From NCBI RefSeq assembly GCF_006064855.1, contig NZ_CP040753.1, positions 1,674,001 to 1,738,000 on the forward strand: 64,000 nucleotides of DNA, written 5' to 3'. The notes under the pieces were generated by a model, which worked only from the letters and a program-made list of their open reading frames with translations, was not told the DNA's origin and did no database searches. The stretch's first letter is position 1. The number at the start of each line of letters is the position of its first letter. The translations under genes were made by a program, and so were the position numbers. This document shows positions 11,989 through 59,743 of the stretch, one piece after another. The DNA comes from Sulfitobacter sp. BSw21498. Its GTDB lineage: Bacteria > Pseudomonadota > Alphaproteobacteria > Rhodobacterales > Rhodobacteraceae.

Positions 11989-12474
11989 CTACGGGTCGTC
12001 GAACCGGTCGTGGACGCCTTCTAGCAGCGTATCCAGCGACGATAGAAAATGCGCGGCCGCCTGGCGGTCGAGCTTGCCCAGAAACCGTGCCTGATGCGCG
12101 TCGACCAGCACCCGCGCCCGCGCCAGCAGGTCTTGCCCCGCGTCGGTCAGCGTGATCGCACGGGCGCGCCCGTCCCCATCCGTCAAGTTCTGCAGCAGCC
12201 AGCCCTTGGCGCGCATCTGCTTAAACGTCCGTGACGCGGTGGGGCGAGTGATCCCGATATTCTCGGCGATTTCAGAGGGTGCGGTGATGCCTTCCAACGC
12301 GATGCTGGCCAACACGCACCATTCCAACCGTGTCAGCCCAAGCTGCAACAGCTCTTTGTCCAGACTAGCGCGCATAATTGCCGCCAGCCGCGACACGCGA
12401 AAGCCCAGCCTGTCGTGCAGGCTGTAGGAAGCGGCGGAATTTTCGGGTTCGCTCGTAAGGTCGGGTTCGCTCAT
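11989..12474 (-). CDS. MarR-family regulator next to the reductive dehalogenase
   Basis: Winged-helix repressor of about 161 residues. The central DNA-binding domain reads TRLEWCVLASIALEGITAPS and NIGITRPTASRTFKQMRAKGW, with the usual wing LTDGDGRARAITLTDAG. The start could be 12474 or 12492; neither has a strong ribosome site and I report the shorter. It is divergent from the reductive dehalogenase gene, and a 22-base palindrome (12524-12545) lies between them. Known catabolic reductive-dehalogenase clusters also carry MarR regulators (family knowledge), so release of repression by a halogenated aromatic acid is a sensible hypothesis. Confidence 0.88.
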   Translation of the reverse strand: MSEPDLTSEPENSAASYSLHDRLGFRVSRLAAIMRASLDKELLQLGLTRLEWCVLASIALEGITAPSEIAENIGITRPTASRTFKQMRAKGWLLQNLTDGDGRARAITLTDAGQDLLARARVLVDAHQARFLGKLDRQAAAHFLSSLDTLLEGVHDRFDDP

Positions 12475-12523
12475 AACGCTTGAATACTTCATTTTTGCCG
12501 CGCCGCTACTGTTTGCTTGCAAA

Positions 12524-12545
12524 ATAGTTGATCCATGACAACTAT
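12524..12545. promoter_or_regulatory. Palindromic MarR-type operator for rdhA
   Basis: ATAGTTG (12524-12530), an 8-base spacer, and CAACTAT (12539-12545) form a perfect inverted repeat between the divergent marR and rdhA genes. It covers the ATG at 12535, which is why that codon is not taken as the rdhA start. Confidence 0.6.
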
Positions 12546-12570: not shown

Positions 12571-15500
12571 ATGACCACAAGGCTGCGCTCGCGCAAAAAC
12601 CGCCCCCCCCACATGGGCGCATATCAGACTGAAAAGCTGCAGCGCGCAGATGGTGCGGCAGGGCCTGTGCCAGCTTTCAAAGCTTTGGGGGTGATAGGGG
12701 ACGACCGCCCTCTGGCGCAGGCCACGCGCGATCATCGCGCCATGCTGGATGCGATCCGCGAAGGTCTGGTGAACACCGCTTTGGCCGACATCCCCGCCGA
12801 TCTGACAGAGCGCGCGCAGCACCTCAAGGCGTTTGCCTATTTCAACGACGCGACGATGGTGGGGATTTGCAAGCTCGCCCCCGATCACCATTTGGCACAG
12901 CCCCTCCGCAACGCGGATGTCGCGCGGTTGGCCCAGGATTTGCAGACGCGACAGGTCAAGACGCTGGCCTCGGGCGTGGATGCGATCATGGCGGACCTGC
13001 GCGATTCAGTCTCGGCACCAGAGACGGTCATCAACGCGCATACCCATGCGCTGGTGGTCCTGTTTGCGCACCCCCGCGCCGTTGAGCAGAATGAACCCGG
13101 TGCCGCGTGGATTGCGGGGATGGAGGATCACCGATCCTCTCTGCTGGCCGCTGAATCGGCGGCGGTGCTGTCAAATTACATCCGTTTACTGGGGCGTCCG
13201 GCGCGCGGGCATACCATGACGGCAAGTGATGTGGACCTGAGCCAGCTGGCGGTGGCGGCGGGGCTCGCCCTGCCCCAAGATGGCCAGTTGACCGCCCCTT
13301 TTGTCGGCACGCGGTTTTCGCTGGCCGCGATCACCATGGCAATGGACCTGGACTGCGACCGGCCCTTGGCCGCCACCGCCACCCTGCCCCGCACACCGCC
13401 CACCTATGCGACGCGGCGCTTTGCCGATGGCGCGCAGCCGTTCGAAAAGCTTAAACGCGTGGACAGCCCCACGACCTATATGGATGAGCCCCGCATCCCG
13501 CGCCTGCCCAAACGTACCGATATGTTCAGCCGTGCGCTGTTCGGGGATATGGGCAAGAAACTGCAAGACGGGGCCACCGGCGGGCGGTACATCCGCAAAA
13601 CGCCGACATCCATGGCGCAACGGCGTGCCTTGGGGGCTTTCTGCCTGCTGCAGGATGGCAAGGCGGCCGAGACACAAACAGCCCCAGCCCCTCAGCAAGC
13701 CGCAGAGATGGTCAAAGCCGTCGCCTATTTTCTGGGGGCCGATGCCGTGGGCGTCAGCCGTTGCCCCGACTGGGCGTGGTACAGCCATGACGCCACCGGC
13801 ACCGCGATTGCCCCGCCCCATGATCAGGCGATCAGCCTTGTCATCGATCAGGGATTTGACACGATGGAGGGGGCCTCGGGCGATGACTGGATCAGCGTGG
13901 CGCAATCCATGCGGGCCTATCTGCGATTTAGCCTTGTGGGCGGCGTGCTGGCGCGGTTGATCCGCGATCTGGGCTATCCGGCCAAGGCGCATACGGTGAT
14001 GGACGGCGATGTGCTGCAACCGCCCTTGCTGTTGCTGTCGGGCCTGGGCGAGGTCAGCCGCATCGGCGAGGTGATCCTGAACCCCTACCTTGGCCCACGT
14101 CTGAAATCGGGAACGGTGACGACCACCCTGCCGATGATCCACGACAAGCCGATCGATTTCGGCCTGCAGAAATTCTGCGAAAGCTGCCAGAAATGCGCCC
14201 GCGAATGCCCCTCGGGGGCGATCACGGCGGGGCCGAAGCTGATGTTCAACGGTTATGAGATTTGGAAGTCGGACAGCCAGAAATGCGCCACCTACCGGAT
14301 CACGACCGAAGGTGGTGCCATGTGCGGGCGCTGCATGAAAACCTGCCCGTGGAACCTTGAAGGGATATTGGCCGACAGCGTATGGCGCTGGACCGCGATG
14401 AAGGTGCCTGCCACGGCCCCCGCCCTTGCCAAGCTGGACGATCTACTTGGCCGCGGCGACATCAACCCCGTCAAGAAATGGTGGTGGGACCTGGAGGTGC
14501 AGGACGACGGCGGCTATCGACCCACCGACAAGCCGGTAAACACCCGTGGCCTGCAAAAAGACCTGAAGCTCAGCCCCAAGGACCAGACGCTTGCCGTCTA
14601 CCCTGCACCCTTGGCCCCGCATCCTTATCCCTATCCCGACCCGATGGACCGCGAGGCCGGTATCCGCGCCTATGGCGAGATGATCCCCGCCGCGACGCAC
14701 CGCGCGCGGGTCGCACGCGGCGAGACGAAAGGATTGGTGCCCGCGCTCAAACCGCTGGCCGACAGTCCGGTGCTGGCGCTGACCGTCACGCGCGCTGATG
14801 TGCTGAGCGACGGGATCACGCGGTACGAGCTGCGCGACCCAGACAGGGCGGATTTGCCCGCGTGGCAGGCAGGGGCGCATCTGGATGTGGTGATCGCGCC
14901 CGAGTACCTGCGCCAGTATTCCATGTGCGGCGATCCCTCAGACCGGTCGCGCTATGTCATTGCCGTTCAGCGCGAGGATCAGGGGCGCGGTGGTAGTGCG
15001 CTGATGCACCGTATCTTTAGCCAAGGCCGCAAGATTTTCGCGGCGCGTCCGATCAACCATTTCCCCCTGACCGAAGACGCAGCCTTCAGCGTGTTGATGG
15101 GGGGCGGCATCGGGATCACGCCGATGATCGCTATGGCACATCGTCTGCACCAGCTGGGCCGGCCCTTTGCACTGCACTATTCAGCCCACACTGCCGCTGA
15201 TCTGGCCTTTGCCGATGAAATCACCGCCGCCCCTTGGGCCACGCGCGCGGTGCGGCACATCAGCGATCAGGGCAGTCGGGCAGACTTTGATGCGATCCTG
15301 TCAGATCACCCCAAGGGCAGCCACGCCTACGCCTGCGGCACGCCAGCCTATATGGAGGCCGCGATGGCCGCCGCAACCTATGCGGGTTTTGCCGAGGATC
15401 ATTGCCATATCGAATATTTCGCCGTCCCCGAGGCCCCGCCGCGCGAGAACCACAGTTTCACGGTCCATCTGGCTAAGACCGGCAAGGATATCCACGTTCC

Positions 15501-15717
15501 CGCAGATCGCAGCCTGTCGGATATGCTGACAGAGGCAGGCGTGCCCGTGGACGTGAAATGCGCCGACGGTATTTGTGGCGTCTGCGCCTGCGGGCTGTTA
15601 CAGGGCGACGCCGACCACCGCGATTATGTGCTGTCGCAGGCCCAACGCGAAACGACGCTGATCACCTGCCAGTCGCGCGCAACACAGGCGGATGGCCATC
15701 TTGTTCTAGACCTATAA
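12571..15717 (+). CDS. rdhA: Self-sufficient catabolic reductive dehalogenase (corrinoid/2x4Fe-4S/flavin reductase/2Fe-2S fusion)
   Basis: Large (1048 residues) cytoplasmic fusion enzyme expected to remove halogen from an aromatic acid reductively, using NAD(P)H. Residues 381-530 form the corrinoid-binding catalytic core; residues 85-265 are a diverged duplicate of it. Two [4Fe-4S] motifs follow: C536, C539, C542, C546 and C572, C585, C588, C592. Then comes a phthalate-dioxygenase-reductase-type module with flavin motif RQYS at 781-784 and nucleotide motif GGGIGITPM at 844-852, and a C-terminal [2Fe-2S] ferredoxin with C997, C1002, C1005, C1033. There is no Tat signal, unlike respiratory RdhA, matching the BhbA/NpRdhA catabolic type. 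Start 12571 has AAAGG eight bases upstream; ATG 12535 lies inside the operator. The halogenated substrate is unknown. No corrinoid-synthesis gene is in the window. Confidence 0.93.
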   Translation: MTTRLRSRKNRPPHMGAYQTEKLQRADGAAGPVPAFKALGVIGDDRPLAQATRDHRAMLDAIREGLVNTALADIPADLTERAQHLKAFAYFNDATMVGICKLAPDHHLAQPLRNADVARLAQDLQTRQVKTLASGVDAIMADLRDSVSAPETVINAHTHALVVLFAHPRAVEQNEPGAAWIAGMEDHRSSLLAAESAAVLSNYIRLLGRPARGHTMTASDVDLSQLAVAAGLALPQDGQLTAPFVGTRFSLAAITMAMDLDCDRPLAATATLPRTPPTYATRRFADGAQPFEKLKRVDSPTTYMDEPRIPRLPKRTDMFSRALFGDMGKKLQDGATGGRYIRKTPTSMAQRRALGAFCLLQDGKAAETQTAPAPQQAAEMVKAVAYFLGADAVGVSRCPDWAWYSHDATGTAIAPPHDQAISLVIDQGFDTMEGASGDDWISVAQSMRAYLRFSLVGGVLARLIRDLGYPAKAHTVMDGDVLQPPLLLLSGLGEVSRIGEVILNPYLGPRLKSGTVTTTLPMIHDKPIDFGLQKFCESCQKCARECPSGAITAGPKLMFNGYEIWKSDSQKCATYRITTEGGAMCGRCMKTCPWNLEGILADSVWRWTAMKVPATAPALAKLDDLLGRGDINPVKKWWWDLEVQDDGGYRPTDKPVNTRGLQKDLKLSPKDQTLAVYPAPLAPHPYPYPDPMDREAGIRAYGEMIPAATHRARVARGETKGLVPALKPLADSPVLALTVTRADVLSDGITRYELRDPDRADLPAWQAGAHLDVVIAPEYLRQYSMCGDPSDRSRYVIAVQREDQGRGGSALMHRIFSQGRKIFAARPINHFPLTEDAAFSVLMGGGIGITPMIAMAHRLHQLGRPFALHYSAHTAADLAFADEITAAPWATRAVRHISDQGSRADFDAILSDHPKGSHAYACGTPAYMEAAMAAATYAGFAEDHCHIEYFAVPEAPPRENHSFTVHLAKTGKDIHVPADRSLSDMLTEAGVPVDVKCADGICGVCACGLLQGDADHRDYVLSQAQRETTLITCQSRATQADGHLVLDL

Positions 15718-15835: not shown

Positions 15836-16891
15836 ATGACAGAACCCAACGGCGCTTCGATCACGTTTGAAGACGTGGGCAAAGGCTATTCCAAATCCGG
15901 CGGTGCGACTGTCACGGCACTTGAAGGCGTGTCTTTGGCGATGGCGCCAGGGTCGATCACCGGCATCATCGGACGGTCCGGCGCTGGCAAATCAACGTTG
16001 CTGCGCATGGTCAACGGGATCGAGCAGCCCACGACGGGTGCGGTGCTGGTGGGTGGACAGAATGTCGTGGCCGCCAAAGGGGCCAAGCTGCGCGCGATCC
16101 GTCGCGATGTGGGGATGATCTTTCAGCACTTTAACCTGCTGGCCTCGCGCACCGTGGCGGGCAACATCGCCCTGCCGCTGGAAATCGCCGGTGTGCCATC
16201 ATCCCAGATCAAACCACGTGTCGCCGACCTGATCGAACGGGTCGGGCTGACCTCGCACGCCACACGCTATCCGGCAGAGCTGTCTGGCGGGCAAAAGCAA
16301 CGGGTGGGGATCGCGCGCGCGCTGGCCACAGGCCCCAAGGTGCTGCTGTCGGACGAGGCGACCTCGGCGCTGGACCCCGAAACGACACAAACCGTCCTGT
16401 CCTTGCTCAAAGACATCAACCGCGAACTGGGGCTGACCATTCTGCTGATCACCCACGAGATGGCCGTGGTCCGTGACATCGCCAGCCATGTCGCGGTGAT
16501 CGACAGCGGGCGCATCGTCGAACATGGCGAGACCTATGATATTTTCACCGCGCCACAGCATCCGACCACACGGTCCTTCCTGTCGGGGGTGACCGGCGTC
16601 ACCCTGCCCGCTTTCGTGAAGGACCGTCTGATGCCGAACCCACCCGCGCAGGGCGGCGAAGAGGTGATCCGCGTGACCTTTGCAGGCCAGCATGCCACCG
16701 ACCCGATGCTGGCGCGGCTGACGCAGGACATGGGCATTCCGGTCAACATCCTGGCCGGTGCGGTCGAGGAAATCGGCACGCGCCCTTTCGGGAACCTGCT
16801 GGTGTCGCTGCCCGTGGCCAAGGCCGCAGAGGCGCGTTCATTTTTGGAAAGCCACGGGCTTATGACGGAGGTGCTTGGCTATGTCGGCTAA
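15836..16891 (+). CDS. metN: Methionine ABC transporter ATPase
   Basis: ATP-binding subunit of the D/L-methionine importer, peripheral on the inner membrane. Walker A is GRSGAGKST (about residues 45-53), the ABC signature is LSGGQKQR and the Walker B region VLLSDEATSALDP follows. The C-terminal part (about 270-351) is the NIL domain that senses methionine in MetN proteins. Length 351 is typical. The stop overlaps the metI start by 11 bases. I looked for a SAM riboswitch in the 118 bases before the gene and recognised none. Confidence 0.93.
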   Translation: MTEPNGASITFEDVGKGYSKSGGATVTALEGVSLAMAPGSITGIIGRSGAGKSTLLRMVNGIEQPTTGAVLVGGQNVVAAKGAKLRAIRRDVGMIFQHFNLLASRTVAGNIALPLEIAGVPSSQIKPRVADLIERVGLTSHATRYPAELSGGQKQRVGIARALATGPKVLLSDEATSALDPETTQTVLSLLKDINRELGLTILLITHEMAVVRDIASHVAVIDSGRIVEHGETYDIFTAPQHPTTRSFLSGVTGVTLPAFVKDRLMPNPPAQGGEEVIRVTFAGQHATDPMLARLTQDMGIPVNILAGAVEEIGTRPFGNLLVSLPVAKAAEARSFLESHGLMTEVLGYVG

Positions 16892-17555
16892 CCTTATCAA
16901 CCTACTGATAGAGGCCACGGGCCAGACCCTGTATATGGTGGCGGTTTCGGCGCTGCTGGGAACGCTGCTTGGCCTGCCCGTGGGGTTGTTTCTGGCGACC
17001 TCGCAACGCGGCGAGCTGCTGTCGGCACCGTGGGTCAACAAAATCCTCGGCCTCGTAGTCAATGCCACACGGTCGGTCCCGTTTATCATACTGGTGGTCG
17101 CGATCATCCCCTTCACGCGGATGGTCGCTGGCACGTCAATCGGCACGACAGCCGCTATCGTGCCGCTGACCATCGCCACCGTGCCCTTCATCGCGCGTCT
17201 GGTCGAAAACGCGATCCGCGAGATCGATTCCGGCCTCATCGAGGCGGCGCACGCCATGGGGGCGACCCCGCTACAGATCATTATCAAGGTGCTGCTGCCA
17301 GAGGCGCTGCCCGGTATCACACTGGGCCTGACCCTCGCCATCGTCAGCCTGATCGGCTATTCCGCGATGGTCGGTGCCGTGGGCGGCGAAGGCCTTGGCG
17401 ATCTGGGTATTCGCTATGGCTATCAACGGTTTATGCCGGATGTTATGGCGGTCGTTGTGATCATTCTCATCGTGCTGGTGCAGCTTGTGCAATCCATCGG
17501 TGAACGCATTGCCGTTGCCGTCGACAAGCGCGCCACCAAAAGCGGCGGGCAATAG
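16881..17555 (+). CDS. metI: Methionine ABC transporter permease
   Basis: Inner-membrane permease of 224 residues with five predicted helices. The coupling-loop segment DSGLIEAAHAMGATPLQII is the EAA motif that docks MetN. The ATG at 16881 lies inside the end of metN; an upstream TTG at 16875 is also in frame but less likely. Translational overlap with metN and the following metQ identifies the operon. Confidence 0.93.
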   Translation: MSANLINLLIEATGQTLYMVAVSALLGTLLGLPVGLFLATSQRGELLSAPWVNKILGLVVNATRSVPFIILVVAIIPFTRMVAGTSIGTTAAIVPLTIATVPFIARLVENAIREIDSGLIEAAHAMGATPLQIIIKVLLPEALPGITLGLTLAIVSLIGYSAMVGAVGGEGLGDLGIRYGYQRFMPDVMAVVVIILIVLVQLVQSIGERIAVAVDKRATKSGGQ

Positions 17556-17607
17556 CGCCCCGTCGCCTCCTCCCCCTACTTCGTTTCCCAGTTAAAGGAG
17601 CATACAC

Positions 17608-18384
17608 ATGCTACGTCTTGTAACCCTGACATCCACAATTGCGCTGATGGCTACATCCTTGATGGCCGAGCAAATCAAAGTCGGCGTTTCCCCCGGCGAG
17701 CACGCCGAGATCATGGAAGAAGTCGCCCGCGTCGCAGAGCCGATGGGTCTTGAAATCGATGTCATCGAATTCTCTGACTACGTTGTGCCAAACCAAGCGC
17801 TGGCCGATGGCGACATCGAAGCGAACTCCTTTCAGCACGTGCCCTACCTTGAGGCGCAGATGAAAGACCGCGGGTTTGCGCTGGCGGTTGTGGGCAACAC
17901 GATCACCACGCCCATGGGAGTCTATTCGGACAAAATCACCGACATCGCCGACCTTGAAGAAGGCGCGACCTTTGGCATCCCGAACGATCCCACCAACGGG
18001 GGCCGTGCGCTGCTGGTCCTGCAACAGCTTGGCATGATCAAAATCGATCCCGCAGCTGGTCTGGTGCCGACGGTTCTGGACATCACCGAGAACCCCAAAG
18101 ACCTGTCGTTCAAGGAACTCGACGCGGCACAACTGCCCCGTTCGCTGGCGGACTTGGACGCGGCGCTGATCAACACCAACTACGCGATTGCATCGGGCTT
18201 GAGCCCCAAGGAAGATTCCATCGCGATGGAAAGCGCCGACAACCCTTATGTGAACGTGATCGCAGTGCAGAAGGGCAAGGAAGACGCACCTTGGGTCAAG
18301 ACCCTGCTAGAGGCATATCATTCGGACGAGATCAAAGCGTTCATCGACGAAAGCTACCACGGGACTGTGATTACATCCTGGTAA
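17608..18384 (+). CDS. metQ: MetQ-type methionine-binding protein
   Basis: Periplasmic substrate-binding protein of the NlpA/MetQ family, 258 residues. The N-terminus (MLRLVTLTSTIALMATSLMA) is a signal peptide; there is no lipobox cysteine, so it appears to be a soluble periplasmic protein and not a lipoprotein as in E. coli. IKVGVSPGEHAEIMEEV and the ANSFQHVPYLEAQ segment are family signatures. AAAGGAG precedes the ATG. It ends the metNIQ operon and is followed by a terminator at 18392. Confidence 0.92.
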   Translation: MLRLVTLTSTIALMATSLMAEQIKVGVSPGEHAEIMEEVARVAEPMGLEIDVIEFSDYVVPNQALADGDIEANSFQHVPYLEAQMKDRGFALAVVGNTITTPMGVYSDKITDIADLEEGATFGIPNDPTNGGRALLVLQQLGMIKIDPAAGLVPTVLDITENPKDLSFKELDAAQLPRSLADLDAALINTNYAIASGLSPKEDSIAMESADNPYVNVIAVQKGKEDAPWVKTLLEAYHSDEIKAFIDESYHGTVITSW

Positions 18385-20321: not shown

Positions 20322-20530
20322 CGAGAAGCCTTTTTTTGAAGGGGTGGGAAAGAAGCAAAGCTCTGCGCCCGTCTTACGCCCATGCGTCCCCAGAGTAAAA
20401 CCAAAGCGAAAGGCCCCTCCCCGTGGTTCATCCAACGGGTCAATTATTTTTATCGCTCTCCCCCAAAAACCGTTGTTAGTTACAAATGCAACCTTTAGGC
20501 AATTAAAGAACCGGATCCATGGAGGCGACG

Positions 20531-21892
20531 ATGACTGATAAAAAATATCCAACCCGCATGACCCAGGCCCCCTCCCTTGCAGGGCCAAACGCGGGATACA
20601 TGCCCGGTTTCGGCAATGATTTTGAAACCGAAGCGCTGCCTGATGCCCTGCCCCAAGGGATGAACAGCCCACAAAAATGTAACTATGGCTTGTACGGCGA
20701 ACAGCTGAGCGGCACGGCTTTTACCGCGCCAAGCCATCAAAACGAACGTACGTGGTGCTACCGCATTCGTCCGTCGGTCAAACATTCGCATCGCTACGAA
20801 AAGATCGACCTGCCGCACTGGAAATCCGCGCCCAATATCGTGGACGAGGTGACCAGCCTTGGCCAATACCGCTGGGACCCGCTGCCGCATAGTGACACGC
20901 CGTTGACATGGTTGACGGGCATGCACACGATGACGACCGCAGGCGATGTCCACACACAGGTTGGCATGGCGACGCATGTGTATCTCGTGACTGAATCCAT
21001 GATCGACGCGTATTTCTTTTCCGCCGACAGCGAGATGCTGGTCGTCCCGCAAGAAGGCCGTTTGCGCTTTTCAACCGAGCTGGGAATTATCGACGTCGCG
21101 CCGCAAGAGATCGCCATTATTCCGCGCGGGCTGGTCTACCGTGTCGAAGTCCTTGAGGGTCCGTGTCGCGGGTTCGTCTGTGAAAACTATGGCCAGAAAT
21201 TCGAGCTGCCCGGGCGGGGGCCCATCGGGGCCAACTGCATGGCCAACCCGCGTGACTTCAAGGCCCCCGTGGCCGCGTTCGAAGACCGCGAAGTGCCATC
21301 GACCGTAACCGTAAAATGGTGCGGCGCGTTTCATGAAACCAAGATCGGACAATCGCCGCTGGATGTGGTGGCCTGGCACGGAAACTACGCGCCGATGAAA
21401 TACGATCTGCGCACCTACTGCCCCGTGGGCGCGGTGCTGTTCGATCATCCTGACCCGTCGATCTTTACCGTCCTGACCGCCCCGTCTGGGCAAGAAGGCA
21501 CCGCGAACATCGATTTCGTCTTGTTCCGCGAACGCTGGATGGTCGCCGAAGATACCTTCCGGCCTCCTTGGTACCACAAGAACATCATGTCCGAATTGAT
21601 GGGCAATATTTACGGGCAATACGATGCCAAGCCCAAAGGGTTCATCCCCGGCGGCATCAGCCTGCACAATATGATGTTGCCCCACGGGCCTGACCGCAAC
21701 GCCTTTGAGGGGGCGTCCAACGCGGATCTCAAGGCCGAAAAGCTCGATAATACGATGTCGTTCATGTTCGAGACCCGTTTCCCGCAGCAACTGACAAAAT
21801 TCGCCAGCCATGAGGCCCCCTTGCAGGATAATTATATCGATTGCTGGGCCGACATCGAAAAGAAGTTCGACGGGACGCCGGGTAAGAAATGA
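20531..21892 (+). CDS. hmgA: Homogentisate 1,2-dioxygenase
   Basis: Fe(II) enzyme that opens the ring of homogentisate to maleylacetoacetate; cytosolic. The 453-residue length and segments [30 protein letters not shown] and [15 protein letters not shown] (iron ligands and active-site histidine loop) are diagnostic. ATG 20531 is chosen because GGAGG lies five bases upstream; the ATG at 20519 sits before that site. It heads an operon of at least nine genes to 29446, with four-base overlaps to maiA and fahA. No tyrosine-pathway hpd gene is adjacent, so homogentisate probably comes from the monooxygenase encoded downstream. Confidence 0.97.
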
Positions 21893-22542
21893 AACTCTAT
21901 TCCTACTGGCGATCGACCACATCCTACCGCATTCGCGCTGCGCTGAACCTTAAGAGTGTGGCGTATGACACGGTGCCGGTTGACCTTGTTGCTGGCGATC
22001 AGCGCGCGCCCGATTACGTTGCGCTGAACGCTGGCAAGGGCGTGCCGACCTTGGTGCTAAAGGACGGCACGGCGCTGACCCAGTCGATGGCGATCCTCGA
22101 GTATATTGACGCGACGTGGCCCGAACCGCGCCTAATCCCTGCTGATGCTTTGCTGCGGGCGCGGGTGATGGCGGTGGCGCATACCGTCGCGCTTGATATT
22201 CATCCTGTAAACAATCTGCGTCTGATCAGGCAGCTCAGATCCCGTTTCGGTGCCACGCCCGATCAGGCAACCGATTGGATGTGCCACTGGATGAACGAAG
22301 GGTTCGCAGCGCTCGAGGCCATGCTGCCGGCCGGCGACAGCTTTGCCTTTGGTGACGCCCCCGACATCGCCGATATCTGCATTACGGCTCAGGTTTATAA
22401 CGCCCATCGTTGGGGCGTTGACCTGACGCCATTCCCGAAAATCGCGCGCATTGAACGGCTTTGCCTGAATATCCCGGCCATTGCCGAAGCGCATCCTGAC
22501 ACTCAGCCCGACACTCAGACTGACGCGAAAGTAGCCACATGA
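21889..22542 (+). CDS. maiA: Maleylacetoacetate isomerase
   Basis: Zeta-class glutathione transferase that isomerises maleylacetoacetate to fumarylacetoacetate with glutathione. The N-terminal thioredoxin fold begins [21 protein letters not shown]; the Ser/Thr residues occupy the catalytic position of the zeta signature. The [10 protein letters not shown] cis-proline loop and [10 protein letters not shown] glutathione contacts are present. Length 217 is typical. The start overlaps hmgA and the stop overlaps fahA by four bases each, so all three are coupled. Confidence 0.94.
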
Positions 22543-23795
22543 CATTGATGAAAAGCTGGGTAACCAGCGCCAACACGCCCGACACCCCCTTCCCTCTGAA
22601 CAATCTGCCCTATGGCGTATTTTCCGTCGGCGACGAAGACGCCCGCTGCGGGGTCGCGATTGGCGACATGATCCTTGATATGGCGGCGCTTGAAACCGCA
22701 GGGCTGATCCGTCTGGACGACGACGCCGCCTTCGACCTGCCGTTCTGGAATGATGTGATGGAACTGGGCCCCGACGTCTGGGCCAAGCTGCGCGCAAGGC
22801 TGCATGAAATGTTGGCCGAAGAGTCGGCGGATCAGGCGGCGACTGAACCCTACCTCGTCCCGCGCGCGGATGCGCAATTGCATATGCCGCTGATGGTATC
22901 CGAATATACCGATTTCTATGCGGGCCGTCAGCACGCACAGAATATGGGCGCGATCCTGCGCGGGTCGCCAGATCTGCCGGCCAACTGGCTGCACATTCCG
23001 GTCGGCTACAACGGTCGCGCATCCTCTGTTGTTGTTTCCGGCACCGACATCCACCGCCCCAACGGCCAATCCAAGGCCCCTGACGCCGATGTGCCGTCTT
23101 TTGGCCCCTCCAAACGGTTGGATATCGAGCTTGAGATGGGCGCGATCGTCGGCACGTCTTGTGAATTTGGCACCCCGATCACGGTCGATCAGGCGGATGC
23201 GATGATCTTTGGCTATGTGCTGCTGAATGACTGGTCTGCCCGCGACATTCAGGGCTGGGAATATCAGCCGCTTGGCCCGTTTCAGGGCAAGGCTTTCGGC
23301 ACGTCGATCTCTCCGTGGATCGTCACTGCGGCGGCACTTGATCCCTTCCGCACGGCGACACCAGCGCGTGAAAAGGAACTGCTGCGGTATCTCGACAGCA
23401 CCATCGACGGCTTGTTCGACATCGAGCTCGAGGTTTTGATACAGCCCGAAGGTGCCGCCACGGCGACGTCTCTGTCGAAAACCAACTATAGCCGGATGTA
23501 TTATTCCGCCGCCGAACAGCTGTGCCACCATGCCAGCGGCGGCTGCGGCATGAACTCTGGTGATCTGCTGGGCTCCGGTACGATCTCGGGGCCAGATAAA
23601 TCCGAATACGGGTCCCTGATGGAGCTGAGCTGGGCGGGGCGTGACCCCTTCACGCTCGATACCGGCGAGACCCGCACATTCATCGAAGACAACGACACGT
23701 TGATCCTGCGCGGTGCCGCAAAGGGCGACGGGTATCAGATCGGGTTCGGCACGTGCGAAGGCACGATCCGTCCCGCCGTTAAATTCCCCACATAA
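22539..23795 (+). CDS. fahA: Fumarylacetoacetase
   Basis: Hydrolyses fumarylacetoacetate to fumarate and acetoacetate, ending the homogentisate pathway. It is 418 residues with a small N-terminal domain (FGVF/YGVFSVGDED-like segment) and a C-terminal FAH domain. EYTDFYAGRQHAQNMG, the DVPSFGPSKRLDIELEMG metal-ligand region and LNDWSARDIQGWEYQPLGPF are family hallmarks. The start overlaps maiA. The next gene follows after 12 bases, so transcription probably continues. Confidence 0.95.
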   Translation: MTLMKSWVTSANTPDTPFPLNNLPYGVFSVGDEDARCGVAIGDMILDMAALETAGLIRLDDDAAFDLPFWNDVMELGPDVWAKLRARLHEMLAEESADQAATEPYLVPRADAQLHMPLMVSEYTDFYAGRQHAQNMGAILRGSPDLPANWLHIPVGYNGRASSVVVSGTDIHRPNGQSKAPDADVPSFGPSKRLDIELEMGAIVGTSCEFGTPITVDQADAMIFGYVLLNDWSARDIQGWEYQPLGPFQGKAFGTSISPWIVTAAALDPFRTATPAREKELLRYLDSTIDGLFDIELEVLIQPEGAATATSLSKTNYSRMYYSAAEQLCHHASGGCGMNSGDLLGSGTISGPDKSEYGSLMELSWAGRDPFTLDTGETRTFIEDNDTLILRGAAKGDGYQIGFGTCEGTIRPAVKFPT

Positions 23796-23807: not shown

Positions 23808-24758
23808 ATGGCAAAAGCATTCGCATCCCAAGGGGATCTGTCCGAAAAGAAAATCACGTTCGACGAAGTCGGAGAGGGTCTGTGGGCGTTCACAGCCGAG
23901 GGCGACCCGAACTCGGGCGTCATCATCGGCGACGACAGCGTCATGATCGTCGAAGCGCAGGCAACGCCGCGTTTGGCCAATAAGGTCATCGAAAAGGTGC
24001 GCGAAGTCACCGACAAACCGATCAACCATGTGGTACTGACCCACTATCACGCCGTGCGCGTGTTGGGTGCTTCGGCCTATGGGGCGGATCAGATCATCAT
24101 GTCGGACGCCGCCCGCGCCATGGTCGAAGAGCGCGGTCAGGAAGATTGGGACAGTGAATTCCAGCGTTTCCCACGTCTGTTTGAAGGCCATGAATCAATC
24201 CCGGGCCTGACCTACCCGACGACCACCTTTAACGACAGCATGACGGTCTATCTGGGCAAACGTCGCGTTGATATCAAACACATCGGCCGTGCGCATACGG
24301 CAGGTGATGCGGTTATCCACGTGCCCGACCAGAATGTGATGTTCACCGGCGACATCGTCGAAGACCATTCTGCGTGTTATTGTGGTGACGGGTATTTTGG
24401 CGATTGGGGCCAGACGCTTGATAATATCAAAGCATATGATGTCGACGCCATCGCACCGGGTCGCGGGGCAGCATTGATCGGCAAAGACGCTGTTGAACGT
24501 GCAATTGAAAGCACGCGCGACTTTGTCCAAAGCACGTACAAGCCCGCACAAAGGGTCGCCATGAAGGGCGGCACATTGAAAGACGCATGGGATGCCGTGC
24601 GCGCCGAATGTGATCCGAAATTCCACGACTACGCGATCTATGAACACTGCCTGCCGTTTAACGTCAGCCGCGCCTTCGACGAGGCCCGCGGTATCTGGCA
24701 CCCCCGTATCTGGACCGACAAACGCGATTTGGAAATGTGGGCGCAGTTGCAGGGCTAA
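23808..24758 (+). CDS. Metallo-beta-lactamase-fold hydrolase with altered metal motif
   Basis: A 316-residue MBL-fold protein encoded inside the homogentisate operon (12 bases after fahA; AAAGGA before the ATG). The usual HxHxDH zinc motif appears as HYHAVR at residues 79-84, so the Asp and third His are replaced. A later GRAHTAGDAVIHV and FTGDIVED segment keep the other expected His and Asp. It could be a mononuclear hydrolase, or act on a thioester or lactone intermediate. Position between fahA and the monooxygenase implies a role in processing an upstream aromatic compound, but no function is established from sequence. Confidence 0.82.
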   Translation: MAKAFASQGDLSEKKITFDEVGEGLWAFTAEGDPNSGVIIGDDSVMIVEAQATPRLANKVIEKVREVTDKPINHVVLTHYHAVRVLGASAYGADQIIMSDAARAMVEERGQEDWDSEFQRFPRLFEGHESIPGLTYPTTTFNDSMTVYLGKRRVDIKHIGRAHTAGDAVIHVPDQNVMFTGDIVEDHSACYCGDGYFGDWGQTLDNIKAYDVDAIAPGRGAALIGKDAVERAIESTRDFVQSTYKPAQRVAMKGGTLKDAWDAVRAECDPKFHDYAIYEHCLPFNVSRAFDEARGIWHPRIWTDKRDLEMWAQLQG

Positions 24759-24781
24759 GGCCAAGTCTGGGAGGACAACTC

Positions 24782-26407
24782 ATGGTCGACGTCCGTTACG
24801 ACATCGCGTTCAAACTGTACCCATACGAAAAGGTCGCAGGTCAAGATCTGGCACCTCGACGACACCCTGTGGTGATCGTCGGGGGCGGGCCTGTCGGGAT
24901 GGCAACGGCCCTTGATCTTGGGCGCAAGGGCACGCCTGTTCTGGTGCTCGATGACCACGAAGGCGTCGGACAAGGCAGTCGCGCCATCTGCTTTGCCAAA
25001 CGCACGCTTGAAATCTGCGACCGTCTGGGGGCAGCCAAGGGAATGGTCGACAAGGGCGTCGTGTGGAACGTCGGCAAGGTGTTCCACGGCGACAAACGCG
25101 TGTTCGAATTCAACCTGTCGCCCGAAGACGGGCACAAGGCACCTGCGTTTATCAACCTGCAACAGCCGTATTTCGAGAAATACCTCGTAGAGGAAATTCG
25201 CGTGGCGCAGTCGCAAGGCGCGCCCATCGAAATTCGCGGGCGCAATGTGGTCACCGGTATGGCGCAGCAGGGCGACCATGTGCTGCTCGACGTCAATACG
25301 CCCGACGGCCCCTACCAGCTTGAGGCGGATTGGGTAATTGCCTGTGATGGGGCGCGTTCGCCCACACGCGACATGCTGGGGCTCGGCTTTGCGGGGCGCG
25401 TCTTTGAAGATAATTTTCTCATTGCCGATGTCAAAATGAAGGCCGACTTTCCGACCGAACGCTGGTTCTGGTTTGCCCCCCCTTTCAAAGACAGCGGTGC
25501 CTCTGCCCTGCTGCACAAACAGCCCGACGATATCTGGCGCATTGATTTCCAACTTGGGTGGGACATTGACCGCGCCAAAGAGCTTCGCGTTGAAAACATC
25601 CGTGCGCGTGTGGATGCGATGCTGGGCAAGGATGCCGAGTACGAGCTGGAATGGACCTCGATTTACACATTCCAATGTCGACGTATGGAAAAGTTTCGTC
25701 ATGGGAACGTGCTGTTCGCGGGCGATAGCGCGCATCAAGTGTCGCCGTTTGGCGCACGCGGTGCGAATTCCGGCGTGCAAGATGCGGACAATTTGGCGTG
25801 GAAGCTTGATCTGGTGGTCAAAGGTCTTGCCCCCGATACACTGCTGGACAGCTATTCAGAAGAACGGGTGCACGGTGCGGATGAAAACATTCTGAACTCC
25901 ACCCGAGCGACCGATTTCCTGACCCCCAAGACCGAGATGAGCAAAATCTTCCGTGACGCTGTGCTCGAGCTTGCCCATGACCATTCTTTCGCGCGGGTTA
26001 TGGTGAATTCCGGTCGGCTGTCGCTGCCTTGCAGCTATGACGGTCTGTCGTTGAATGGGCCCGATGCGCTGAACGGCCCGACGGTCAGCCGGGTCGGTGC
26101 AAATTGCAGCGACGCCCCCCTGAAAGACGGGTTCTTGCTGGATGTTCTGGGTGGGGATTTTACTGTTCTGGCGATCAACACAGAGGCGCCGCAGCTTGCG
26201 GACGTTGACGGGATCGCACTGAAGACCGTGACGTTGGATACCGGCCGTGACGACGCAAGCGGCGCTATCGCTGCGCGCTATTTGGGTGCCGCCCCCAGCG
26301 GCATTTATCTGATCCGCCCGGACCAACATGTCGCGGCCCGTTGGGCAGCAGCCAGCGCTGCCGACATCCAGTCCGGTGTGCGCATTGCGACAGGAAGAGG
26401 GCAGTGA
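24782..26407 (+). CDS. FAD-dependent aromatic monooxygenase (MhaA-like)
   Basis: Flavoprotein hydroxylase of 541 residues in the phenol/3-hydroxyphenylpropionate hydroxylase class. GGGPVG at residues 34-39 binds the ADP part of FAD, a WVIACDGARSPTRDMLGL segment follows, and GDSAHQ at 314-319 with PFGARGANSGVQDADNLAWK contacts the flavin ribityl chain. The last 120 residues look like the thioredoxin-like C-terminal domain of this class. ATG 24782 is preceded by GGGAGGAC. It is followed after two bases by a 60-residue DUF2783 protein. Its size and small partner resemble the two-component 3-hydroxyphenylacetate 6-hydroxylase MhaAB, which makes homogentisate. Automated labels such as pentachlorophenol monooxygenase are less specific. 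Confidence 0.85.
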   Translation: MVDVRYDIAFKLYPYEKVAGQDLAPRRHPVVIVGGGPVGMATALDLGRKGTPVLVLDDHEGVGQGSRAICFAKRTLEICDRLGAAKGMVDKGVVWNVGKVFHGDKRVFEFNLSPEDGHKAPAFINLQQPYFEKYLVEEIRVAQSQGAPIEIRGRNVVTGMAQQGDHVLLDVNTPDGPYQLEADWVIACDGARSPTRDMLGLGFAGRVFEDNFLIADVKMKADFPTERWFWFAPPFKDSGASALLHKQPDDIWRIDFQLGWDIDRAKELRVENIRARVDAMLGKDAEYELEWTSIYTFQCRRMEKFRHGNVLFAGDSAHQVSPFGARGANSGVQDADNLAWKLDLVVKGLAPDTLLDSYSEERVHGADENILNSTRATDFLTPKTEMSKIFRDAVLELAHDHSFARVMVNSGRLSLPCSYDGLSLNGPDALNGPTVSRVGANCSDAPLKDGFLLDVLGGDFTVLAINTEAPQLADVDGIALKTVTLDTGRDDASGAIAARYLGAAPSGIYLIRPDQHVAARWAAASAADIQSGVRIATGRGQ

Positions 26408-26409
26408 AC

Positions 26410-26592
26410 ATGGAACTCAATCTGAACCCGAATATCAAAGATCCCGACGGATTTTATGATGAACTGCTTGGGGCGCACAGCGGGCTGAGCAAGGACGAAA
26501 GTGATGCGTTCAATGCGCGGCTGATCCTTATTCTGGCCAACCACCTGGGCGACAGGGCGATCCTGCGCGCCGCGTTGAACGCCGCAAAGTAA
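26410..26592 (+). CDS. DUF2783 protein, probable small partner of the monooxygenase
   Basis: Sixty residues (about 6.6 kDa), starting two bases after the monooxygenase stop. It begins MELNLNPNIKDPDGFYDELL and contains LNARLILILANHLGD, both typical of DUF2783. There is no signal or membrane segment. The coupling to the flavin monooxygenase gene and size recall the small coupling protein MhaB of the 3-hydroxyphenylacetate hydroxylase; the assignment is inference. Confidence 0.8.
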   Translation: MELNLNPNIKDPDGFYDELLGAHSGLSKDESDAFNARLILILANHLGDRAILRAALNAAK

Positions 26593-26668: not shown

Positions 26669-27688
26669 ATGACGAAATTCACATCCATCGCGCTGATCGG
26701 CGCATTGCTATCGGGCACAGCTGTTGTGCCAGCCTTCGCGGATACCGAACTGGTGTTGTCCAGCTGGCTGCCACCGCGCCACCCGATCGTGGTCAACGCA
26801 ATCAAACCTTGGGCCAAGGAGGTCGAAGAGGTCACACAAGGCCGTGTCACCGTGCGGGTTCTGGGCCGTGCTTTGGGCAGCCCACCGGCGCATTTTGACA
26901 TGGCCAAAGACGGCATTGCCGACATTACCTATGGGCTGCACAGCTTTAGCCAAGACGATCGTTTCGACGCGTCCCAGGTCGGACAGTTCTCCTTTATCGG
27001 TGACGACGCCGTGACCGCATCGCAAGCGTTCTGGACCGTCTACACTGAAGATCTGGGCGCGCGTGACGATCACGAAGGCACCCATTTGCTCAGCCTGTTC
27101 GTCCATGGCCCCGGATTACTGCACAACAATGTGCGCCGCATTGAAACGCCCGAAGATTTTAGCGGCCTAAAGATGCGCGTCCCCGGCGGCTATATTGCCG
27201 AATTCGTGGAAGACCTTGGTGCGACGCCGTTGTTCATGTCCTCTACCGAGGTCTACGAGAAACTGTCGCGCGGCGTGATCGACGGCGCGGCCTTTACCTA
27301 CGAGGCCCTGACCGCGTTCAACCTGACGGACGACATCAAGTATTCGATGACCGTCCCGGGCGGGATCTATAACACCTCGTGGTTTCTGGTGATGAACGAA
27401 AAGAAATGGGACGGCATAAGCGCCGAAGACCAGGCCGCGATTGATGCCATCTCGGGTGTTGCTTTTGCAGAGCGGGTTGGCGCAGCATGGGACGCGGCGG
27501 ACGCCGCAGCCGTGGTCGCGATCGAAGAGGCCGGCATCGAGGTCTATGCCGCGCCAGCTGCGGTTCTTGACGCCGCGCGCGCATCGGCAACAACACTAGA
27601 GACCACATGGGCCGAAAGCCTTGGCAGCGAATTTGACGGGCGCGCCGCGCTGGCACGTCTGCGCGAAATCTCTGGTGTTGCTCAATGA
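26669..27688 (+). CDS. dctP: TRAP transporter solute-binding protein
   Basis: Periplasmic DctP-family protein, 339 residues, with a signal peptide ending near TAVVPAFA. The LSSWLPPRHPIVVNAIKPWA start and GLKMRVPGGYIAEFVEDLGA segment are characteristic; the arginine in KMRVP is the conserved carboxylate-binding position. It is the seventh gene of the hmg operon and overlaps dctQ by four bases. The context predicts an aromatic carboxylate such as a hydroxyphenylacetate as ligand (inference). Confidence 0.92.
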   Translation: MTKFTSIALIGALLSGTAVVPAFADTELVLSSWLPPRHPIVVNAIKPWAKEVEEVTQGRVTVRVLGRALGSPPAHFDMAKDGIADITYGLHSFSQDDRFDASQVGQFSFIGDDAVTASQAFWTVYTEDLGARDDHEGTHLLSLFVHGPGLLHNNVRRIETPEDFSGLKMRVPGGYIAEFVEDLGATPLFMSSTEVYEKLSRGVIDGAAFTYEALTAFNLTDDIKYSMTVPGGIYNTSWFLVMNEKKWDGISAEDQAAIDAISGVAFAERVGAAWDAADAAAVVAIEEAGIEVYAAPAAVLDAARASATTLETTWAESLGSEFDGRAALARLREISGVAQ

Positions 27689-28143
27689 TCATGCGTCTGT
27701 TGGGCCGGGGGCTTGAAGTGTGTTCAATCGCACTTCTGCTTGGCCTGATGACCGTCACGGGCCTTGATGTGATCGGCCGATACTTCTTGAACGCGCCCTT
27801 GAAGGGGGCGTTCGAACTGACCGAAATTCTCTTGGCTGCCCTCGTGTTCACCGCGCTGCCACTGGTAAGCCGTGCGGGGGAACATGTGGATGTCGACATC
27901 GCCACGAGCTTCCTGCCCGGCCGCCTGCAACACGTGCTTTCGCTGGCGATCGCGATCCTGTGCGCGGGGACCTTACTGTTCTTTGCGTGGCGTTTGGGGC
28001 TGCTCAGCCAAGCGCAGGCAAATGATGGTGCACGGTCAGTGGCCTGGGGCGTCCCCTATGCGCCGCTTGCGCTGCTTGGTGCCGTCATGTGTCTGCTTGC
28101 GGCTGGCTATGGGATCATAAAAGGGACTGCCAAGAATGATTGA
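27685..28143 (+). CDS. dctQ: TRAP transporter small permease
   Basis: A 152-residue inner-membrane protein with four predicted helices, for example CSIALLLGLMTVTGLDVIGR and LQHVLSLAIAILCAGTLLFF. The FLNAPLKGAFELTEILLAALVF region is typical of DctQ subunits. Its ends overlap dctP (4 bases) and dctM (8 bases), so stoichiometric translation of the transporter is likely. Confidence 0.9.
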   Translation: MIMRLLGRGLEVCSIALLLGLMTVTGLDVIGRYFLNAPLKGAFELTEILLAALVFTALPLVSRAGEHVDVDIATSFLPGRLQHVLSLAIAILCAGTLLFFAWRLGLLSQAQANDGARSVAWGVPYAPLALLGAVMCLLAAGYGIIKGTAKND

Positions 28144-29446
28144 ATCGACCGTCGGGATCCTGGTTCTTCTGGGTCTCATCTTTTTGCGGATGCCGATTGC
28201 CTTTGCGATGTCGCTGGTGGGCGGCATCGGTTTTGGCCTCATGCGTGACTGGAATGCCGCTGGCGCGATGGTGGGCAATGCGGTGTTCGAAACCGGGCTC
28301 AGCTATTCGTTATCCGTCGTGCCCCTGTTCATCTTTATGGGCAATATATTGGCGCAGTCGGGCATCGCACACGGGTTGTTTGCCGGTGCTGACCGGCTGT
28401 TCGGACGTATGAAGGGCGGGCTTGCGCTAGCCACGATCCTAAGCTGCGGCGGATTTTCTGCTGTCTCTGGGTCATCGCTTGCGACCGCTGCCACAATGAG
28501 CCGTGTCGCCATGCCGCCGATGCGGAAATTCGGCTATTCCGATAGCCTCGCCTCCGGTGCAATCGCTGCGGGCGGGACGCTCGGGATCCTCATTCCACCC
28601 TCCGTGATCCTGATTATCTACGGCCTTTTGACCGAAAGCGACATCGGCAAGCTGTTTATTGCGGGGCTTCTGCCAGGGCTGCTTGGGATCATCCTGTACA
28701 TGGTCGCCGTAGTGGTCGCCGTCAGGCTAAAGCCCGATCTTGCCCCGCCTGTGACGCAGTCGGAACCGATGACGAAACATGATCGTATCGGCGTATCTGG
28801 CACATTGGGACTGTTTGTTTTCATCATGGGCGGCATCTATGGCGGGTTCTTTACCCCTATCGAAGCCGCGGGCATGGGGGCCATTTTCTCGCTTGTCCTT
28901 GCGTTGCTTATCCGGGGACTGAACCGGAGCGGTTTCGTCGATGCTTGCCGCCAGACCGTGTCGTCGTCGGGCATGATCTTCGCGATCATCATCGGTGCCG
29001 AAATTTTCTCGGCGTTTGTGAACTTTGCAGGGTTGCCCGATGGTTTGGTCGATCTGGTCGACACTTATGATCTGTCCGCATGGGGCGTGATCTTTATTAT
29101 GGTTGCGATCTATCTGATCATGGGCTGCGTCTTTGAAAGCCTGTCGATGATCTTGCTGACTGTTCCTGTGTTCTATCCGGTCGTGAGCCAGCTGGATTTC
29201 GGCGGCAGCGTATTGGGCGACCCGGAACTTGTTCTGATCTGGTTTGCCGTGATTGTCGTCGTCGTGACCGAGATCAGCTTGATCACACCGCCTGTCGGTA
29301 TGAATGTCTTTGTCCTGCGCTCTGTCCTCAAGGACGTTTCGCTGAGCACGATCTTTCGCGGCGTATTGCCGTTCTGGATCGCCGACATCGTACGTCTGGC
29401 GCTGCTACTGGCGACCCCGTCGATCTCGCTTGTTCTGCTCACCTAG
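28136..29446 (+). CDS. dctM: TRAP transporter large permease
   Basis: Twelve-helix DctM subunit, 436 residues, which drives Na+-coupled uptake with DctPQ. The segments FAMSLVGGIGFGLMRDW, GGTLGILIPPSVILIIYG and LITPPVGMNVFVLRSV are family hallmarks. It is the last gene of the operon; the next gene (pabB) is convergent 37 bases away and no strong terminator is seen between them. Confidence 0.93.
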   Translation: MIESTVGILVLLGLIFLRMPIAFAMSLVGGIGFGLMRDWNAAGAMVGNAVFETGLSYSLSVVPLFIFMGNILAQSGIAHGLFAGADRLFGRMKGGLALATILSCGGFSAVSGSSLATAATMSRVAMPPMRKFGYSDSLASGAIAAGGTLGILIPPSVILIIYGLLTESDIGKLFIAGLLPGLLGIILYMVAVVVAVRLKPDLAPPVTQSEPMTKHDRIGVSGTLGLFVFIMGGIYGGFFTPIEAAGMGAIFSLVLALLIRGLNRSGFVDACRQTVSSSGMIFAIIIGAEIFSAFVNFAGLPDGLVDLVDTYDLSAWGVIFIMVAIYLIMGCVFESLSMILLTVPVFYPVVSQLDFGGSVLGDPELVLIWFAVIVVVVTEISLITPPVGMNVFVLRSVLKDVSLSTIFRGVLPFWIADIVRLALLLATPSISLVLLT

Positions 29447-59579: not shown

Positions 59580-59743
59580 AGCCAACGCCTGTTTTTAACC
59601 AATCTTAAAGGTCGGTTATCTTTAGACGTGTAACCGCGATCTGAATGCATCCGCGGCTTTTGGCGAACTCACATATAGACAAAGAAACTCACGTCGCGTT
59701 CTCGCGCGCCGTTCTCATTTGTAAATCATTGAAAGGAATGGAA

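Follow-up and report, generated by a model that had tools for sequence, protein, structure and literature searches.

The question raised by a fused reductive dehalogenase

What would a marine roseobacter do with a reductive dehalogenase that carries its own reductase, how might the gene be switched on, and where would the dehalogenated product go? These questions are raised by a 64,000-nucleotide stretch of Sulfitobacter sp. BSw21498 (contig NZ_CP040753.1; hereafter the window), in which the gene rdhA (12571..15717, + strand) encodes a predicted 1048-residue self-sufficient catabolic reductive dehalogenase, an RdhA-PDOR fusion. The sea is a natural source of brominated phenolic acids, and the initial annotation had proposed that the organism debrominates such compounds with NAD(P)H, an activity that we also infer for the Sulfitobacter enzyme. 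Taken as a whole, the explanation that an NAD(P)H-driven, self-sufficient RdhA is switched by a MarR-family regulator and delivers its product to homogentisate cleavage or to PobA/PcaGH cleavage appears very probable. Its demonstrated part comprises protein architecture, residue conservation, gene order and motif enrichment, which were observed directly. Marine relatives already provide examples of this enzyme type; what is new is a probable genetic switch for it and a probable onward route for its product. An assayed kind of enzyme is placed in a testable cell-level pathway, and aerobic mineralisation of brominated phenolic acids is a practical question.

Domain architecture of the rdhA product

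The frame at 12571-15717 is complete, and an alternative ATG at 12535 would extend the product to 1060 residues. As Met13 of the 1060-residue version is nearly invariant (conserved in at least 90% of 19 aligned proteins) and a palindrome at 12524-12545 overlaps the 12535 ATG, the start at 12571 is the likelier one. The product scores above the cut-off of the reductive dehalogenase profile TIGR02486 (196.4 bits, cut-off 160.35) and of Fer4_16, and its top PDB sequence match is the Nitratireductor enzyme NpRdhA (6zxu, E 4.6e-148), whose alignment falls into two separate stretches within residues 13-726 of the 1060-residue version. The RdhA half (approximately residues 1-718; 12571..14724, +) consists of a vestigial N-terminal copy of the cobalamin domain followed by the catalytic cobalamin domain, and the N-terminal half gives a second, weak match to the reductive dehalogenase (RDH) profile. 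Between the two phmmer stretches lies a gap (12892..13035, +) of 48 residues compared with 6 in NpRdhA, bounded by query positions 119 and 168 (1060-residue version) and NpRdhA chain positions 132 and 139. An insert in RdhA-PDOR fusions is described in PMC10463259, and the 48-residue insert is presumably the same element. Two [4Fe-4S] motifs follow (C536/C539/C542/C546 and C572/C585/C588/C592; 14176..14346, +), and the C-terminal part is a flavin/NAD(P)H reductase with a plant-type [2Fe-2S] module (C997/C1002/C1005/C1033; 14758..15714, +) that matches phthalate dioxygenase reductase 2pia at E 2e-59.

The dehalogenase core, the twelve cysteine positions, the reductase module and the lack of a Tat signal had all been claimed in the initial annotation, and all of them hold. 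The N-terminus, read by eye and not with a signal-peptide program, has no twin-arginine motif with a trailing hydrophobic stretch in either start version, and the product therefore lacks the Tat signal of the respiratory type. No RdhB membrane anchor is a direct neighbour, as a MarR gene lies upstream and a MetNIQ-type importer downstream. The protein might instead be another class-III cobalamin enzyme such as epoxyqueuosine reductase, to which a weak match to the QueG profile TIGR00276 would point (E 9.4e-05). At 21.6 bits, where the cut-off is 200, this match falls far below the level for QueG membership; a different frame of 357 residues elsewhere in the genome, with a weak RDH-profile match (27.1 bits), is the likelier QueG, and all six dehalogenase active-site residues are kept in the rdhA product, which makes this identity highly improbable.

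Conservation of the active site and a structure model

Relatives were compared over 190 loci (L numbers), of which 79 derive from the best 80 of 565 relatives (one had no full-length frame) and 111 from a one-per-genus set; 179 are non-redundant, and the set is not a random sample. After omission of 11 duplicate and 3 short rows, the protein alignment holds 176 rows including the window protein. The eight [4Fe-4S] cysteines are cysteine in 176/176 rows and the four [2Fe-2S] cysteines in 175/176, with X or a gap in the remaining row. The window protein is 45.4% identical to NpRdhA over 555 aligned residues, and its active-site residues are F319 (NpRdhA F291; 13525..13527, +), S446, M447 and Y450 (S422, M423 and Y426; 13906..13920, +), K512 (K488; 14104..14106, +) and R576 (R552; 14296..14298, +). 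All six are identical in every one of the 176 proteins and are also common to BhbA and to the Jannaschia, Nitratireductor OM-1 and Aminobacter proteins. The catalytic Tyr and the Lys/Arg pair, whose retention the initial annotation had proposed to check by alignment, are kept as Y450, K512 and R576, and CobN scores above its cut-off in the genome. A structure model of the protein (pLDDT 77.2, pTM 0.70) recovered NpRdhA chains at Foldseek ranks 1-14 (best E 5.6e-50), with the match spanning model residues 4-717. A first model, built on 19 sequences, was poor (pLDDT 53.4) and was set aside.

How such an enzyme could work is best seen from JtRdhA, a marine enzyme of roseobacter type assayed in 2023. 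It is NADPH-dependent and active also under air on bromo- and iodophenols; its flavin takes up electrons from NADPH, the iron-sulfur centres relay them to the corrinoid, and ortho-halogenated phenols release bromide or iodide (PMC10463259). The parts for a JtRdhA-like electron path are recognisable in the predicted window protein, and by analogy with JtRdhA and NpRdhA we infer activity, oxygen tolerance, substrate, electron path and mechanism. The rdhA product would be a cytoplasmic, oxygen-tolerant, self-sufficient catabolic reductive dehalogenase in which NAD(P)H supplies electrons that travel by way of the C-terminal flavin and [2Fe-2S] centre and the two [4Fe-4S] clusters to base-off cobalamin. 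The cobalamin would remove bromine (or iodine) ortho to the phenolic hydroxyl of a carboxylated phenol, with Y450 together with K512/R576 serving in proton supply and substrate holding.

The enzyme could alternatively act mainly in detoxification of diverse marine bromo- and iodophenols, with no dedicated carbon pathway and with incidental neighbours. JtRdhA accepts 2-iodophenol and 2,4,6-triiodophenol (PMC10463259). In a count over 112 loci (the 111 one-per-genus loci and the window, with clusters named by reading sequences), no recognised aromatic-catabolism cluster occurs in five or more loci except small fumarylacetoacetase-like proteins (8), and the commonest neighbour clusters are MarR regulators (17), TRAP transporter parts (9) and generic families. 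Set against this are the retention of K512 and R576, whose counterparts are tied to substrate binding in NpRdhA (PMC10463259), and the aromatic-acid genes that adjoin rdhA in several single lineages, so that a purely protective role seems unlikely.

Homogentisate genes and the possible fate of the product

In the proposed pathway, the product of debromination would be an acid of the 4-hydroxyphenylacetate or 4-hydroxybenzoate type that is cleaved as an ordinary carbon source, either via the nearby homogentisate operon or via PobA and PcaGH. The initial annotation had noted that no ring-cleavage gene is adjacent. This stands for the position directly downstream, occupied by the MetNIQ-type ABC importer (15836..18384, +), but is incomplete, as the same strand carries a homogentisate 1,2-dioxygenase operon at a distance of 4.8 kb downstream, and PobA and PcaH are encoded elsewhere in the genome. 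The operon starts with hmgA, the ring-cleavage dioxygenase gene (20519..21892, +; TIGR01015 647 bits vs 510.75), followed by a maiA-like gene (21889..22542, +), which we take, partly from its position between hmgA and fah, to encode a putative maleylacetoacetate isomerase, and by fah for fumarylacetoacetase (22539..23795, +; TIGR01266 495.8 bits vs 375.3). The order hmgA-maiA-fah recurs in other loci. An MBL-fold hydrolase gene (23808..24758, +) and a gene for an FAD-dependent aromatic hydroxylase of the PRK08132 family (24737..26407, +; NF006002 759.5 bits vs 416) complete it; the PDB matches of the hydroxylase are distant (best E 1.5e-39), and it is a candidate for converting hydroxyphenylacetate to homogentisate. 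Genes for the TRAP transporter components DctP, DctQ and DctM (26669..29446, +) come next, DctP and DctM assigned by family search and DctQ by position; relatives of these (DctM 68%, DctP 66%) adjoin the homogentisate operon of another genome of the family, G257. A small frame at 26341-26592 after the FAD hydroxylase gene corresponds in position to a DUF2783 gene of S. pontiacus. As four same-strand genes (MetNIQ and an ion-channel gene) and one reverse-strand gene lie between rdhA and hmgA, the two do not form one operon in the window.

Linkage of rdhA to hmgA was scored in the fetched flanks by tblastn at 45% identity or more over half of HmgA. It occurs in 6 of the 179 non-redundant loci, representing four lineages: the window with S. 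litoralis, L007, L021 with L084, and L033. A family-wide association with homogentisate genes was rejected at this frequency. In L007 and L033, hmgA, maiA, fah, the MBL gene, the FAD hydroxylase gene and rdhA lie on one strand in this order, with a gap of approximately 0.26 kb ahead of rdhA. In L021 and L084, hmgA is divergent from rdhA and a MarR gene at a distance of 0.5-0.6 kb, and the MBL and FAD-hydroxylase genes lie behind hmgA; no relative of maiA or fah was matched in these two loci. FAD-hydroxylase relatives are also found near rdhA without hmgA in L085 and L086. In the one-per-genus sample taken by itself, the linkage is weak: at least 2 of the 114 rdhA-matching genomes (G000 and G294) have hmgA within 20 kb, as judged by eye among the matches listed. 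A Poisson estimate, set up after the pattern had been seen, assumes uniform placement over 4.0 Mb of genome and the presence of hmgA in 80% of genomes; on these terms the flanks of 178 loci would be expected to yield 0.60, and P is 0.003 for four lineages. On the FastTree tree, the distribution of hmgA linkage needs at least four changes, and the connection has therefore been gained or lost more than once. A limited literature search (titles and abstract starts) found no report linking a reductive dehalogenase to homogentisate genes.

Several of these loci have further features of their own. In L007, an aromatic-amino-acid decarboxylase gene whose best match is DOPA decarboxylase (E 2e-115) lies 0.9 kb past rdhA, and among the 190 loci L007 is alone in having such a gene in its flanks. 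The L007 segment 13751-17986, downstream of rdhA and the homogentisate genes, holds this DOPA/tyrosine-type decarboxylase gene together with glutamine-synthetase-like and iron alcohol dehydrogenase genes. In L086 (11123-13153), paaZ lies 121 bp upstream of rdhA, a further linkage to aromatic-acid genes. The S. pontiacus plasmid pDSM110277_c (178 kb; L218) carries homogentisate genes with other neighbours, and no rdhA lies within the 29.7 kb viewed.

JtRdhA acts on 3-bromo-4-hydroxyphenylacetate at 99.3% of its best rate, with growth of E. coli W on this compound (PMC10463259), and this range together with the homogentisate linkage suggests a brominated hydroxyphenylacetate as the physiological substrate. 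Whether fused debrominases have, in some roseobacters, repeatedly been joined to homogentisate genes to form an aerobic pathway for brominated tyrosine metabolites, running from uptake through MarR-controlled debromination and ring hydroxylation by the FAD enzyme to cleavage, is a more tentative matter, and we lean slightly against it. If it is true, the substrates would be bromo-4-hydroxyphenylacetate and similar compounds of sponge, coral and algal origin. A comparable, similarly doubtful standing is given to bromo-4-hydroxybenzoates as substrates, in which case 4-hydroxybenzoate would be converted by PobA to protocatechuate for ortho cleavage by PcaGH and the homogentisate operon would be a chance neighbour. 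Profile searches show that the genome encodes HPPD, PobA (614 bits vs cut-off 538.7), PcaH (365.5 bits vs 296.4; approximately 46 kb from rdhA) and CobN, and gave no match for HpaD at E 0.001. In addition, bhbA adjoins protocatechuate 4,5-dioxygenase genes on plasmid pBHB, the Nitratireductor OM-1 gene lies near pobA and an extradiol dioxygenase gene, the best tested substrate of JtRdhA is 3,5-dibromo-4-hydroxybenzoate (PMC10463259), and the homogentisate linkage is rare. PobA and PcaH, however, are not encoded close to rdhA, whereas the homogentisate genes lie at 4.8 kb and adjoin rdhA in three further lineages. With the HmgA operon and PobA/PcaH all present, homogentisate and protocatechuate cleavage are both open to this genome.

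A MarR regulator and an operator-like palindrome

Divergent from rdhA lies a gene for a MarR-family regulator (11989..12522, -; assigned by family search), and between the two genes is the operator-like palindrome ATAGTTG-N8-CAACTAT (12524..12545), the only exact copy in the genome. MarR regulation is known among respiratory rdh genes. With a profile built from the neighbours (within 5 kb, score above 55), a MarR gene was called upstream of rdhA in 34 of 190 loci (32/179 non-redundant; 19/111 in the one-per-genus set alone), with L084 (58.4) and L021 (57.0) barely above the threshold. The MarR-rdhA distance is at most 500 bp in 29 loci, 8 divergent and 21 tandem.

A generalised motif, TAGTTR-N7/8-YAACTA, was derived from inverted repeats at the window, S. 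litoralis, L166, L038, L015, L042 and L011, and hits at these source loci are not independent; additional hits were obtained at L163, L172, L184, L185 and L005. Six of the hits had served to derive the motif, whereas the remainder and two plasmid loci had no part in its derivation. Within -800 to +40 of rdhA, the motif occurs 10 times in 145.7 kb, always at MarR loci, in 10 of 32 loci with MarR vs 0 of 147 without. Counting L011 and L015, where it lies farther out, 12 of the 32 MarR loci have it, and 20 have none at 1 mismatch. In 2638 kb of flank there are 4 occurrences, of which two adjoin MarR genes; because the motif is rich in AT and most of the flanking DNA is coding, the MarR-free loci are the better control. 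On plasmids, the motif lies directly upstream of MarR with 1 mismatch in Aminobacter (L217) and between divergent MarR and rdhA with 2 mismatches in Jannaschia (L214). No hit was found beside MarR at the Yoonia plasmid locus (L215), and none at up to 1 mismatch around bhbA (L213), in L216 or in the Nitratireductor plasmid.

These patterns suggest that MarR binds the palindrome, which would likely act as the genetic switch of rdhA, turning the gene on when a ligand is present. The motif would offer a handle on the compounds sensed by such bacteria. BhbR2 of Pigmentiphaga, as described in PMC12016517, is a MarR protein responsive to 3-bromo-4-hydroxybenzoate that functions as an activator and binds a different palindrome. 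A text search of PMC10463259 returned no mention of MarR.

Points against the proposal, and the distribution of the fused gene

Several observations weigh against the explanation favoured here, that of a MarR-switched debrominase feeding ring cleavage. With mismatches allowed, the palindrome is not in excess: the window has 1 match at up to 3 mismatches vs 0.94 expected, and the genome has 3 sites at up to 2 mismatches vs 6 for a reversed control pattern. The direct downstream neighbour of rdhA is MetNIQ and not an aromatic gene. The structure model is of low confidence at residues 311-318, 479-498 and 557-568, near active-site residues, so that the predicted pocket shape is to be read with caution. 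Approximately 18-19 loop residues ahead of F319 are absent from the window protein and 10 other rows of the 176, and the substrate range may differ because of this shortening. Finally, the window protein and its S. litoralis counterpart sit on a long branch, with at most 65% identity to every other locus, and past a database cluster at 93% the remaining database proteins reach 67% at best. The short loop (24-33 residues; window approximately 265-291) occurs in 11 of 176 proteins, those of the window, L004, L005, L006, L007, L008, L053, L089, L095, L139 and L157, and possibly bears on substrate range. The 93% cluster (P0002) represents 693 member sequences.

Matches to the rdhA protein with E 1e-100 or better occur in 114 of the 295 genomes that represent the window's family at about one per genus (113/294 genera), which suggests that aerobic reductive debromination is common in the family. 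Among the 114 matches, one lacks the reductase part (G033), one is the reductase part alone (G160), and several others cover the query partly. Matches interrupted by stops and apparently decaying were observed at G269:C1:2007599-2009686 and G193:C12:38798-40096. The closest named relative is Sulfitobacter litoralis (L004), and as it carries the gene at 95% identity, rdhA places the genome as a Sulfitobacter relative. The only other member of the genus sampled, G055, has a copy at 61%, less similar than copies from other genera. FastTree joins the window to L139, both within a 12-row group that includes G055, while IQ-TREE with BhbA groups the window and L007 within a clade of eight short-loop rows, and G055 stands apart. 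The loop columns were kept, and the loop may contribute to the short-loop clade. Replacement of rdhA within the genus is likely, with the two trees disagreeing on the nearness of G055. Full-length relatives were found on eight plasmid records, five at 60-62% and three, including BhbA, at 47-54%; no Sulfitobacter plasmid was among the matches of this search.

Other arrangements were considered and rejected. MetI and MetQ of this kind accompany rdhA only in S. litoralis among the best 80 of 565 relatives, and TRAP parts occur in a minority of loci, so that neither rdhA-MetNIQ nor rdhA-TRAP is a conserved unit. An island with a sharp GC edge was not seen, the GC content being 0.61-0.65 near rdhA and 0.56-0.60 across the homogentisate genes. 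Elsewhere in the window, a copper-resistance multicopper oxidase is encoded at 59645-61573 (TIGR01480, 657.7 bits vs 478.95).

Comparison with known systems

The closest counterpart by description is JtRdhA of Jhaorihella thermophila (WP_104007082), which like the window protein is an RdhA-PDOR fusion without a Tat signal, with a duplicated cobalamin domain, the same six active-site residues and a marine host. The chlorinated compounds tested with JtRdhA were not turned over and were inhibitory (PMC10463259), and chlorinated substrates are therefore not to be assumed for the fused type. BhbA of Comamonas sp. 7D-2 plasmid pBHB (WP_015585978, L213) is 51.0% identical over 1041 aligned residues (48.5% by tblastn), of the same length class and with the same active-site residues. 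Unlike the window, its locus lies on a conjugative plasmid with protocatechuate 4,5-dioxygenase, tripartite tricarboxylate transporter and porin genes and insertion sequences, and lacks the operator motif at up to 1 mismatch. NpRdhA of Nitratireductor pacificus (4ras, 6zxu, 6zy1) is alike in its RdhA half, fold and active site; it also reduces chlorinated compounds and, unlike the window protein, has neither the fused reductase nor the insert (PMC10463259). The initial annotation's description of BhbA and NpRdhA as similar in design is thus borne out for BhbA, an enzyme of the same kind, but needs correction for NpRdhA in the matter of the reductase.

PMC13101508, with reference to earlier work, notes putative homologues of bhbA across the Roseobacter clade. 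The same paper describes Ros_A3X954 of Roseobacter sp. MED193, a marine roseobacter debrominase without a Tat signal like the window protein; to judge from its stated motif positions (283-345), Ros_A3X954 is probably much shorter. Strain MED193, the source of this enzyme assayed in 2026, also holds a full-length fused reductive dehalogenase (L062). The C-terminal flavin, NAD(P)H and [2Fe-2S] module of the window protein is shared with phthalate dioxygenase reductase (2pia) and self-sufficient P450s (6laa, 6kbh); in those systems the reductase modules serve oxygenases, whereas the module encoded in the window would serve a corrinoid dehalogenase.

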